DNA of 64,000 nucleotides from Trichuris trichiura. Taxonomy: Eukaryota > Nematoda > Enoplea > Trichinellida > Trichuridae. The notes below the pieces were generated by a model. That model had not been told where the DNA came from. It saw nothing but the letters and a program-made list of their open reading frames with translations, and did not search any database. Shown here piece by piece: positions 26,936-31,052 of this stretch. The DNA lies in the NCBI GenBank assembly GCA_037903355.1, contig JBAJFE010000005.1:3720001-3784000 (forward strand), written 5' to 3'. A program made the translations under genes and the position numbers. How positions within the stretch are numbered: the first letter of the stretch is position 1; each line of letters opens with the position of its first letter.

Positions 26936-27457
26936 CTAACGAAAATAAAACATTTACAGTATACAACTTACATGATCTGCAGGGACAATTCAGCTAGCTA
27001 AAAGAAATTAAAGTTGCGTTGTTAAAATCGCCCTTAGCTAACGCTTGTAACAAGTATTTTAATCCACGCGTTTTTACGATGGGAAATGACAGCTTGCGGG
27101 AAACTATTTCTTCAAATTTAAAAAAAAATTTAGTTATTACTGATGTCACACGGTTGTTTTGGACTGTAGTCACTTGCTCTAAGAAAAATATTTTCTGAGT
27201 TTAAGCAAATCTTTCAATACAATGGGCCGACAGTTTTTGAAAATGTTTCGTTGGCGATAAAATTTGCACGTTCAAGAGGCAACATGTTCCGGACTTCAGC
27301 TGTCGAATTCGCAGCAGAAGGCATTGAAAAATCAATAAGTTTTATTGGGCAATATGAAATAGTGAATAAGAAGGTGAATTTTTAACATGAAGGGAGACAT
27401 GTGTTAACTCAAGAATAAATAGACCGCTAACAAATTAAGCACTTGCATTTATAATAT
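26936..27457. other. Intergenic, upstream of GHITM and left flank of LTR element
   Basis: Short AT-rich spacer with no coding signal. It includes the GHITM promoter and ends with the ATAT target-site copy immediately before the 5' LTR. Confidence 0.6.
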
Positions 27458-27696
27458 TGTAGCAATTCCTGCCAGCTCTGGCCAGCCGAAACGATCTTCA
27501 AGTTAGGGCTACGATAGTCTCCAGCGGTGACTAGGGGTACAGTAGAGAGTGTGTGACAGACGAGTGAGCGAGTCGGTTGGTCGCTGTGTTGTGTTCGTGT
27601 CGCCTGAGAGAAAGTAAACGTTTGAGCAACCCCTCGTAGCGTGTATCCTGCGTCCTCGTTGGGTGGAACCTCTTCTCGTAACGACGGTTCGTTACA
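27458..27696 (+). repeat. 5' LTR of Gypsy-type element
   Basis: This 239-bp direct repeat matches the 236-bp copy at 30813 except for three single-base insertions: an extra A in the cttcaagttag word, an extra G in cagtagagagtg, and an extra C in aacctcttctcg. No substitutions were seen. It starts with TG and ends with CA, as LTRs do. Confidence 0.97.
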
Positions 27697-27700
27697 TATT

Positions 27701-27714
27701 TGGCGCCCACGCAG
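27701..27714 (+). promoter_or_regulatory. Primer-binding site of the LTR element
   Basis: TGGCGCCCACGCAG follows the 5' LTR by four bases. The TGG start is complementary to a tRNA CCA end, and TGGCGCCC is the form used with tRNA-Lys in many elements. The exact tRNA is not confirmed. Confidence 0.7.
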
Positions 27715-27726
27715 TATCCACCCGTG

Positions 27727-30700
27727 ATGATGAGAGAGACTAGGAACCGCAAAGCCGAGGAAGCTCAAGCGGAGATGGATAGACAGTCGGCACCTGGTGG
27801 ACAGCCAGAGAGCACTGAAGCTGGTAGAACGGTGGACCAGGGTTGGCCTAGGTCTGGTACCACAGAAGGAGCGACGAGGCTCTGGTGCCGACCGCCGTCG
27901 TGCTTCTCCCCCACCACCGACGTTGGAGTCTGGCTTAGCCGTCTGAACGACTATCTCATGCTGAATGAGGTCCCGGAGGACAAATGGGCGGCAGTTTTGA
28001 GGTCTTTTGTGGATGATGACGTTTATGTGGTTCTCGCTGAGGAAGGACCCACGGCCACGTATAGTGAGCTGACATCATGCCTAAAGAGACGATATGGCCC
28101 CGGTGACTCAGAGTTAATGGTATGGACGAGATTTGCTCAGCGGCGTCAGAGACCCACGGAATCACTGGAAGAGTTTGCTGACGACCTACGGAAGTTGGGA
28201 AGGCGAGCAGGAAGGTCTGACCTTGACTTGCACGGGCAATTCCTTGGTGGAATCTTGGATCAGGAAATTCAGGCCAACGTGCTGAAGGCGGACACAAAAA
28301 GTTTTGCTGAGGCAGTTCGCACAGCCAAACATTTCCACGCCGTCCGGCGGGATGCCGAAGAGATGCAGAGCTGTCAGGCCAGCGATAGCAGCGGGCGGTA
28401 TGTAAACAAGGAAAGGACGAGCAACGGGTGTAGCAATGCACGCCAGGGAGCGTTGGAGGCAGCAATACGGCGCCTAGAAAACCGGTTAGCTGAACTGCAG
28501 CTGCCAGCAGGGAACAACTCCGTGAGCATAGGTACGGACAGGTTGCCCCCACGCCGTGCTGCTATGACTTGCTTCGTTTGCGGACGTCAAGGACACTTGG
28601 CGCGTAACTGCGCTGAACGTTCAAGAACAGAAGCTGATGTTCAGTTGCCAGGCAAAGGTAATGCCTCAGCCTTGGCATTCCAGCTAGCGGACAAGAAGTT
28701 AAGGAAGAAAGTGCCGACACTGCGTGTTAGTGTAGGCGAGCGAGAGGTGGAAGCTGTCATAGATACTGGAGCCACGTCGAGCTTCGTCCACAAGAGCCTG
28801 ATCGCAGATGGCCAGGTTATGATGGAGCCATGGAATGCTCCTTGTTTCCAAGGCGTTGACGGGAAAAACGTCTTACCGATTGGAAGAGCCACTCTGGCCC
28901 TGGTTCATCAAGGGCAGCCACTTGAGGTAGAAGTTGCAGTGCTACCATCATGCCCTTGTATGCTGGCCTTAGGCACAGAGGCGCTAATGAAGTTGGGCCT
29001 TACCATGCGTTTCTCACCACTGGGTTGGCACATCGAGAGAAGCTCAGACTCAAAGGGATCTGCTCCAGGAGACAATTTCCAGTTGATCAGCGGCACAGAT
29101 CAAGCACCTCCATCAGGGACATGTCCAGACTTGGGAGACATGCCTGGTAAGCTGGTCGCTGGAGGCGCGGATGATAAAGTGCTAGTAAAGGAAGACATGC
29201 CCCAGGATGCTCATTTGGGAGCAGTGCTGCAGAGAGTGATAAAAAGTTCCGCTCAGCTTTGCTACGGGAAGCTGTTGTCCAGCGGTGAACGTGATGGCCT
29301 TCTTAGGCAGGTACATTCGGTTGAGCATCTGGTTGGTCCACTAACAGTAGGTGAAAAGAGTGGACACCTAACTAAGCATTGGATCCCCAACGGGGATGCC
29401 AACCCCATACAGTGCAGACCGTATAGAATCTCGCCTCAGGAACGGGAGGCTGATAGGGTGGGTAAACGGATGGCATGTATGGCGGTCGACTCGATAACTG
29501 AAGAGGAATTGGCACAGGCACAAGAAGCAGACCCAATCTTATCAGACCTGATGAAGAGCGTAAAAGGAAGTGGTGGCGGCATTACAAAAGGCGATTCTCG
29601 CGATGCCGAAGGCTTCCGATTGAATGAAGGGGTGTTATACAAGAGGAACGATAGGAATGGGCGATCATGGTTACTGGCCGTACCGGAGCGACTGCAGTAT
29701 GGATTGTGCGTGGCGGCGCACGCTGCAGTAACTTCTGGACACTTGGGCGTGAGGAAGACCCTCTCCCGGCTAAAGAGCCGCTACTGGTGGCCTCGGATGT
29801 CCAAGACAGTTGAGAAGGTAGTGTTGTCCTGCATTAGCTGTCAGAAAAGGAAGGTTGAAAATGTCAAGCCTGCCGGCTTGCTACAGAGCATCGTTCCACC
29901 GACCGCGCCGGGTGAAACGTGGGGAATTGACCACTTGGGTCCGTTTCCATTGTCGAGACGAGGAAATCGACATGTAATTGTTTGCGTCGACTACCTAACT
30001 AAATGGGTAGAATTGAAAGCTGTACCGGATACGACAGCGGAGAAAGTGAGAGATTTTCTGACAGAGTGCATTGTGGCACGTCATGGTGTCCCGAAGAAAA
30101 TTATTTCGGACCGAGGGACAGCGTTTACGGCAGAGAGCCTGAGGCTCGCATTGAGTTCAATGAGCATTGCACATGGAATGGTTAGCGCTTGTCACCCACA
30201 AGCAAATGGACTGGTAGAAAGGACGAATCGGACTATAAGCGACATCTTGTCGGCATATGTCAACGCGAAGCATAACGACTGGGACGAGTTTCTGCCGTTC
30301 GTTATGTTAGCCTTGAATACCGCGGAGCAGTCAAGTACAAGGTTTACACCGTTTGAACTGGTCTACGGGCGTGTGGCCATGCTTCCAGAAGAGAGCTGTT
30401 TGCCTTGGCCACGCGATGTTAGCTTGCCACACGAAGTCTTCAAGGAGCAGTTGCAACAACGTCGAAAGGAAGCACGAGCAAACTGCCTGCGTAGCCAGGC
30501 GGCTCAGAAAAAGTACTATGATGGTAGGCGTCGTGTAGGCACGAGATTTCAAGTTGGACAGTTGGCATGGTTACGGCGGAATGTGCGTCGCGTAGGGAGA
30601 AGCGCTAAACTACTACCACGCTACGTTGGACCTGTCCGGATTACCAGTGTTTTGGGCGAAAACACTTATCGGATTGAAAGGTTAAACGGACGAATGAAGG

Positions 30701-30888
30701 GCCGCATTTCGTCGACAGCCCATATTTCGCAGTTGAAGCGTTACGTGGAATCAGTGAGCAGACATACACGTCGTCGATTACGGCGATCGACTTCAAAGGG
30801 AGGGAGGCGGATTGTAGCAATTCCTGCCAGCTCTGGCCAGCCGAAACGATCTTCAGTTAGGGCTACGATAGTCTCCAGCGGTGACTAG
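27727..30888 (+). CDS. Gag-protease-integrase polyprotein with RT/RNase H deleted
   Basis: The frame runs 1,053 residues from ATG at 27727 to TAG inside the 3' LTR. Gag has the retrotransposon capsid region (WLSRLNDYLMLNEVPEDKWA, FAQRRQRPTESLEEFADDLR) and a CCHC zinc knuckle CFVCGRQGHLARNC near 28570. The protease active site is VIDTGATSSFVH at about 28758. The pre-RT linker (NPIQCRPYRISPQERE) ends near 29450, where RT should begin, and passes directly into the spacer before integrase (ITEEELAQAQEADPILSDLM). Integrase has the HHCC finger (H..SGHLGVRKTL..C-x2-C) and all three catalytic acidic residues in GIDHLGPFP, IISDRGTAF and HPQANGLVERTNR. A C-terminal GPV-type module (LLPRYVGPVRI) follows. 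Roughly 450-550 residues are missing in frame, with no stop or frameshift elsewhere. Confidence 0.93.
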   Translation: MMRETRNRKAEEAQAEMDRQSAPGGQPESTEAGRTVDQGWPRSGTTEGATRLWCRPPSCFSPTTDVGVWLSRLNDYLMLNEVPEDKWAAVLRSFVDDDVYVVLAEEGPTATYSELTSCLKRRYGPGDSELMVWTRFAQRRQRPTESLEEFADDLRKLGRRAGRSDLDLHGQFLGGILDQEIQANVLKADTKSFAEAVRTAKHFHAVRRDAEEMQSCQASDSSGRYVNKERTSNGCSNARQGALEAAIRRLENRLAELQLPAGNNSVSIGTDRLPPRRAAMTCFVCGRQGHLARNCAERSRTEADVQLPGKGNASALAFQLADKKLRKKVPTLRVSVGEREVEAVIDTGATSSFVHKSLIADGQVMMEPWNAPCFQGVDGKNVLPIGRATLALVHQGQPLEVEVAVLPSCPCMLALGTEALMKLGLTMRFSPLGWHIERSSDSKGSAPGDNFQLISGTDQAPPSGTCPDLGDMPGKLVAGGADDKVLVKEDMPQDAHLGAVLQRVIKSSAQLCYGKLLSSGERDGLLRQVHSVEHLVGPLTVGEKSGHLTKHWIPNGDANPIQCRPYRISPQEREADRVGKRMACMAVDSITEEELAQAQEADPILSDLMKSVKGSGGGITKGDSRDAEGFRLNEGVLYKRNDRNGRSWLLAVPERLQYGLCVAAHAAVTSGHLGVRKTLSRLKSRYWWPRMSKTVEKVVLSCISCQKRKVENVKPAGLLQSIVPPTAPGETWGIDHLGPFPLSRRGNRHVIVCVDYLTKWVELKAVPDTTAEKVRDFLTECIVARHGVPKKIISDRGTAFTAESLRLALSSMSIAHGMVSACHPQANGLVERTNRTISDILSAYVNAKHNDWDEFLPFVMLALNTAEQSSTRFTPFELVYGRVAMLPEESCLPWPRDVSLPHEVFKEQLQQRRKEARANCLRSQAAQKKYYDGRRRVGTRFQVGQLAWLRRNVRRVGRSAKLLPRYVGPVRITSVLGENTYRIERLNGRMKGRISSTAHISQLKRYVESVSRHTRRRLRRSTSKGGRRIVAIPASSGQPKRSSVRATIVSSGD
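30795..30811 (+). promoter_or_regulatory. Polypurine tract of the LTR element
   Basis: A 17-base purine-rich run (aaagggagggaggcgga) ends just before the 3' LTR, where plus-strand DNA synthesis is primed in LTR elements. Confidence 0.75.
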
Positions 30889-31048
30889 GGGTACAGTAAG
30901 AGTGTGTGACAGACGAGTGAGCGAGTCGGTTGGTCGCTGTGTTGTGTTCGTGTCGCCTGAGAGAAAGTAAACGTTTGAGCAACCCCTCGTAGCGTGTATC
31001 CTGCGTCCTCGTTGGGTGGAACCTTTCTCGTAACGACGGTTCGTTACA
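30813..31048 (+). repeat. 3' LTR of Gypsy-type element
   Basis: This is the 236-bp direct repeat of the 5' LTR. It is followed at once by the second ATAT target-site copy. The polyprotein frame ends inside it. Confidence 0.97.
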
Positions 31049-31052
31049 ATAT

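Follow-up and report, generated by a model that had tools for sequence, protein, structure and literature searches.

Several groups of long terminal repeat (LTR) retrotransposons are thought to be moved in trans, among them TRIM, LARD, BARE-2 and the recombinants of maize CRM1. TRIM and LARD elements are without a coding frame, and BARE-2 is without Gag. To our knowledge, no TRIM, LARD, BARE-2 or CRM1 case keeps Gag, protease (PR) and integrase (IN) while losing exactly the reverse transcriptase (RT) and RNase H. Nor did we recognise in the open-access PMC literature, by title or abstract, any paper on a Gypsy element of this kind, which is no proof of absence. Here we describe a Ty3/Gypsy element that keeps Gag-PR-IN in one open frame without RT and RNase H. 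It lies in a 64,000-nt stretch of the Trichuris trichiura genome (C5:3720001-3784000), hereafter the window.

Related situations have been described in mammals and plants. The mouse IAP subtype I-delta-1 carries an in-frame internal deletion that leaves a single Gag-Pol fusion frame, and is non-autonomous, with proteins needed in trans (PMC6466679). Its fusion protein helps in cis, and the subtype makes most new insertions (reviewed in PMC6466679). In cattle, the C-type and D-type elements of the endogenous retrovirus (ERV) family ERVK[2-1-LTR] include competent and defective partners, with recombination everywhere except near the deletion boundary (PMC10924933). In wheat, the Gypsy partners RLG_Quinta and RLG_Cereba share LTR ends and primer-binding site, and the non-autonomous Quinta encodes a Gag that may help (PMC11302176). 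According to the parts of that paper examined, Quinta has Gag and an unknown domain, with no protease or integrase, and split from Cereba 28-35 million years ago. Old members of the Arabidopsis family Onsen rejoin the active pool via recombination during transposition bursts (PMC5668417).

We refer to the window copy as W, to two full-length copies on C9 as A and B, to two decayed relatives as C60 and C2, and to the members of a second family as E1 and E2. W spans 27458-31048 (3591 nt, Table 1) and has ATAT at either end. Its LTRs (239 and 236 nt, TG...CA) differ by three 1-nt indels and zero substitutions, in agreement with a first-pass annotation of the window, which had read near-identical LTRs and a perfect duplication as a recent insertion. 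The same annotation had proposed an open frame with zinc knuckle, protease and integrase but no RT or RNase H, and Pfam and the 1062-codon frame bear this out; RVT_1 and RNase H are absent from the Pfam results for the W protein up to E 0.1. The stop codon of the frame sits within the 3' LTR. In the W protein the order is PR then IN, with the integrase C-terminal in pol, as in B (PR-RT-RH-IN). W is thus non-autonomous by its structure, having no RT or RNase H, and is yet a structurally recent insertion, with LTRs free of substitution and a perfect duplication. The closest named proteins among 57 database matches are from Trichuris muris (78%) and T. suis (54%).

Table 1. Features of W, in positions of the window.
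Feature	Positions	Strand	Basis
Target-site duplication, left, ATAT	27454..27457	.	read from sequence
5' LTR, 239 nt, TG...CA	27458..27696	+	LTR alignment
One open frame of 1062 codons encoding Gag-PR-IN but no RT/RNase H; first ATG 27727	27700..30888	+	
Presumed primer-binding site, TGGCGCCCACGCAG	27701..27714	+	identical in A and B
CCHC zinc knuckle, residues 290-305	28567..28614	+	PF00098
Aspartic protease, residues 337-436, DTGA	28708..29007	+	PF00077 (RVP)
Block around junction unlike full-length relatives; pre-junction part groups with C60	29201..29620	+	sequence comparison
Junction of the deletion (1233 nt or 411 codons fewer than B), with a 4-nt GAAC repeat at its ends	29439..29440	+	
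H2C2 integrase zinc finger, residues 661-719	29680..29856	+	PF17921
Integrase core rve, residues 735-833	29902..30198	+	PF00665
SH3-like C-terminal domain, Tf2-1 type (SH3_Tf2-1), residues 956-1016	30565..30747	+	PF24626
Presumed polypurine tract before 3' LTR	30795..30812	+	identical in A and B
3' LTR, 236 nt	30813..31048	+	
Target-site duplication, right, ATAT	31049..31052	.	read from sequence

The genome (72.7 Mb, 62 contigs) contains both full-length relatives of W and a second copy of its deletion. A probe of the W junction gave 7 matches, including W, C60, A, B and C2; 30 matches were obtained with an LTR probe and 6 with a gag probe. C60 matches the junction probe unbroken (338/341 nt, 93%), while the matches of A, B and C2 are split at the junction. 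C60 therefore carries the exact junction at an unlinked locus, and the deletion is not confined to the window copy. C60 is itself decayed: it has no 5' LTR beyond its end, its gag holds a ~1.06-kb insertion, and its integrase part has a gap of 168 nt. The full-length relatives, A and B, are 4823 nt each and 99.5% alike, with at most one base difference within each LTR pair. B has an open frame of 1470 codons, and in A the frame is split in two (557 and 896). We considered whether A and B are one duplicated locus, and this was ruled out, as their target duplications differ (ATAT and ATAG) and the two loci stop matching where the element ends. The presumed primer-binding site and polypurine tract of W are identical in both, so that a full-length partner with matching cis signals is present in the genome.

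Compared with B, W lacks 1233 nt (3591 against 4823 nt, with 475 and 474 nt of LTRs, respectively). In B, Pfam places RVT_1 (PF00078) at residues 612-770 and RT_RNaseH (PF17917) at residues 864-963, both within the 411 codons absent from W (about B residues 581-991). The 4-nt direct repeat GAAC at the deletion ends is seen in A and B. The first-pass annotation had the frame passing from the linker straight into the pre-integrase spacer, at a junction near 29,440-29,490. RT and RNase H are indeed gone, but a stub with the pre-RT/RT N-terminal motif (HxIxTGDANPI..PYR in B) survives upstream of the junction, which is now placed at 29439/29440.

The similarity of W to its full-length relatives is uneven along the element. 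W differs from B at 11/1467 nt (0.7%) in gag-PR and at 17/1191 (1.4%) in the integrase part, so that these parts are 98.6-99.3% alike, against 27/237 (11%) before the junction and 8/183 (4%) just after it. The differences between W and C60 around the junction are 15/237 and 13/183 (6-7%). Within 29100-29460, 10 sites unite W and C60 against the RT-bearing A, B and C2, and 7 set A and B apart from the others. When the 211 informative sites were shuffled 100000 times, no shuffle reached the run at 29309-29438 that unites W and C60; this test assumes exchangeable sites. In the RT stub, the sites uniting W and C60 include the nonsynonymous changes F to V (29332) and T to N (29389), while B, C2 and the T. 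muris protein P0001 have F and T; R to W at 29380 is found in W alone. Such changes are in keeping with RT having been freed from constraint before the split of W and C60. The U3 region of W is unlike that of A and B, and its LTR variant has no other copy in the genome, the nearest LTR being ~97% alike. On these comparisons, W is a mosaic that resembles B except in a block, apparently old, that carries the deletion.

Several of the relatives have features of their own. Copy A (L052) differs from B over a short tract just before the junction site and has the W/C60 bases at 29427-29438; A may also be a recombinant. The C2 copy (L055, C2:4512725-4515259) is decayed and keeps RT sequence, but it is missing the 5' part of gag and the greater part of the integrase region; the start of its RT is unusually near B (3/150 nt differ), a further hint of recombination. 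The ~1.06-kb gag insertion of C60 (L054, C60:175500-184500) is bounded by CATAGGTTCTCAAA...TTTGAGAACCTATG, as read by eye, with what seems to be a duplication of 8 nt (GGATAGGT), and looks like a non-autonomous hAT-type element. On C28 (L056/L057, C28:445000-463500), three LTRs of the W family lie ~6.9 kb apart, each near a second partial LTR, as if a larger unit had been duplicated in tandem.

A second Gypsy family, unrelated to that of W but with the same loss, was found by comparing integrase with RT matches. E1 (C1:5380111) and E2 (C7:5752218) are 3033 nt each, with 170-nt LTRs that are identical within each copy and target duplications of GGGGC and AAAAT, respectively. Both encode the same 888-residue protein, for which Pfam gives an H2C2 finger and rve. 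RT and RNase H are not listed for this protein at E 0.01, and the Pfam protease model gave no match; a putative protease is called from the motif DPGA, by itself, at the expected place. The deletion (1341 nt, 447 codons) is in frame, covers RT/RNase H and falls on a 7-nt repeat. A 601-nt junction probe gave 14 matches, in which E1 and E2 are unbroken and six other copies appear as two halves each. E1 and E2 have common bases at L071 positions 2264 and 2529, one on each side of the junction, which are absent in 6/6 full-length copies. Their U3 variants match different full-length copies, as recombination would give. An origin of the pair by duplication, whether tandem or segmental, was ruled out, since flanks and target duplications differ. 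Judged from these features, E1 and E2 are two insertions descending from one RT-less deletion.

Such frames are rare among the long integrase frames scored in this genome. The integrase survey scored 150 of 351 candidates, with decayed copies such as C60 falling outside the count, and 84 of the 150 lie in frames of at least 779 aa. An RVT_1 match lies within 3 kb upstream in 64 of these, RVT_2 lies downstream in 17 (Copia), and neither is present in three, which are W, E1 and E2 only. At first, 20/84 frames had seemed RT-less; a guess that 17 of them were Pao elements failed, and RVT_2 downstream identified these as Copia. The Copia elements of this genome match PF07727, unlike B, and include intact-looking elements in several copies (L001, C1:6912339-6915644) with frames of 1321-1374 aa. 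In the protein database, none of the 57 matches to W and 78 to E1 has a Pfam list with protease and integrase but without RT and RNase H, the sequences themselves being scanned for motifs only. A few of the matches (P0063, P0123) are without RVT_1 but keep RNase H domains.

Taken together, W is an RT-less, non-autonomous Gypsy element that lost RT-RNase H by what is probably an old deletion. W, E1 and E2 are probably Gag-PR-IN satellites that are copied in trans and recombine with full-length partners. The first-pass annotation had suggested a non-autonomous lineage that keeps Gag, protease and integrase and borrows RT. The lineage has gained support from the shared junction, the full-length relatives and the like second family, while the trans-mobilisation is deduced from sequence only. 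In both families there is more than one insertion per deletion (W and C60; E1 and E2). Since E1 and E2 descend from an RT-less ancestor, at least one of them needed an outside source of RT, and so did W, provided that its deletion and that of C60 are the same event. We envisage that template jumping between short direct repeats during reverse transcription excised exactly RT-RNase H in frame. The RT-less RNA, with its cis signals kept, would then be packaged in particles also holding full-length Gag-Pol (from copies such as A and B), and the partner RT would copy it. Recombination with the partner RNA may occur during copying, followed by insertion.

Some observations weigh against this reading. 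Only two copies, W and C60, have the W junction and one of them is decayed, so the lineage was never abundant; the E1/E2 lineage likewise counts two copies. Four informative sites in 29100-29460 contradict the grouping of W with C60, and after the junction W is not grouped with C60 at all, B and C60 being closest there (5 differences against 8 and 13). The coding changes specific to W are 14 nonsynonymous and 12 synonymous, where ~29% synonymous would be expected; they give no clear selection signal and are not decisive. Selection for the open frame of W, which the first-pass annotation had raised, is hence not supported, and the frame is probably open largely because of recent recombination with intact relatives. 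In the second family, the coding differences between E1 and E2 are 7/7 synonymous. If the same base changes are placed randomly, this outcome has a probability of 1.2e-4 as a product and 5e-5 by simulation. Three are private to E1 (codons 47, 67 and 113, against two full-length copies) and three to E2 (codons 437, 570 and 707, against six); that at codon 363 could not be polarised. The 7/7 result suggests purifying selection, but it rests on few changes, and the same pattern could come from synonymous patches acquired from full-length copies outside the sample; the full-length gag of this family was compared over ~240 nt only, in two copies.

The loss of RT could also be a one-off dead end in each case. 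It would then stem from a template jump in the inserting cycle, or from a deletion or gene conversion that affected the locus afterwards, and no RT-less lineage would exist. The short repeats (4 and 7 nt) at the deletion ends fit jumping within one template and the LTR variant of W is unique to it, but C60 has the identical junction together with 10 linked shared sites. E1 and E2 likewise share their junction and two derived flanking bases despite different target duplications, and this explanation, already weakened, appears improbable. Somewhat less probable still is a recurrent deletion hotspot, in which RNA structure pairs the same repeats and W and C60, or E1 and E2, were deleted independently. 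Direct repeats at the deletion ends in both pairs, and the U3 variants of E1 and E2 that match different full-length copies, would suit such a hotspot, while the shared derived bases beside both junctions would not, and the shared RT-stub changes look like decay following RT loss.

An assembly artefact is very unlikely: the three 1-nt indels without substitutions in the LTR pair of W could be sequencing error, but the deletions lie at four loci, in two families and with different flanks, and the C60 sequence is diverged. The clean, in-frame and domain-exact loss in two families might further recall a retrocopy of spliced genomic RNA, with the RT-RNase H segment as an intron. GT...AG ends are, however, impossible under any placement of either deletion in its repeat, which refutes GT-AG introns and makes this the most far-fetched of the alternatives.

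Beyond an RT-less lineage that borrows RT, we tentatively consider, as a rather doubtful extension, that Gypsy elements with a single frame could repeatedly give rise to RT-less Gag-PR-IN forms as a stage favoured by selection. Such a form would be a helper satellite, under purifying selection on its own proteins, that exchanges sequence with its full-length partner. Elements with one polyprotein would make Gag and Pol equimolar, and exact excision of RT-RNase H would raise the share of Gag and integrase over RT in the particles. Selection on these proteins would act in cis, or because mixed particles are not poisoned. The idea rests on the parallel with Quinta, a presumed source of Gag (PMC11302176), and on the excess of Gag over Pol that yeast Ty elements need (PMC7175516).

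In the literature examined, most non-autonomous LTR elements lose coding capacity or keep Gag only. Two families in one genome that have lost RT-RNase H in frame, kept Gag, protease and integrase and later spread suggest, in a form open to testing, that retrotransposon RNAs can divide labour among themselves. TRIM and LARD elements have no coding capacity, unlike the 1062-codon frame of W and the 888-codon frames of E1 and E2. W, E1 and E2 also differ from Quinta in being recent and in keeping integrase. Onsen, unlike them, is a Copia family, and the parts of PMC5668417 examined describe no RT-less class. The cattle ERVs come nearer: the 29201-29620 block of W shows the same pattern as ERVK[2-1-LTR], and W, E1 and E2 show a way in which a deletion can persist, via recombination with intact relatives, as there (PMC10924933). 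The D-type elements, however, are described as having no functional genes, while W, E1 and E2 keep an open Gag-PR-IN frame. The nearest experimental precedent among the sources considered is IAP I-delta-1 (PMC6466679), which has a like in-frame fusion after internal deletion, the codons lost here being 411 (W) and 447 (E1/E2). IAP is a retrovirus-like mouse element and not Ty3/Gypsy, and its case is experimental whereas that of W is read from the genome. I-delta-1 has lost 1.9 kb of gag and pol, whereas W keeps Gag and protease and loses RT and RNase H only. As far as these sources go, RT-less Gag-PR-IN elements have precedents as non-autonomous LTR elements moved in trans.

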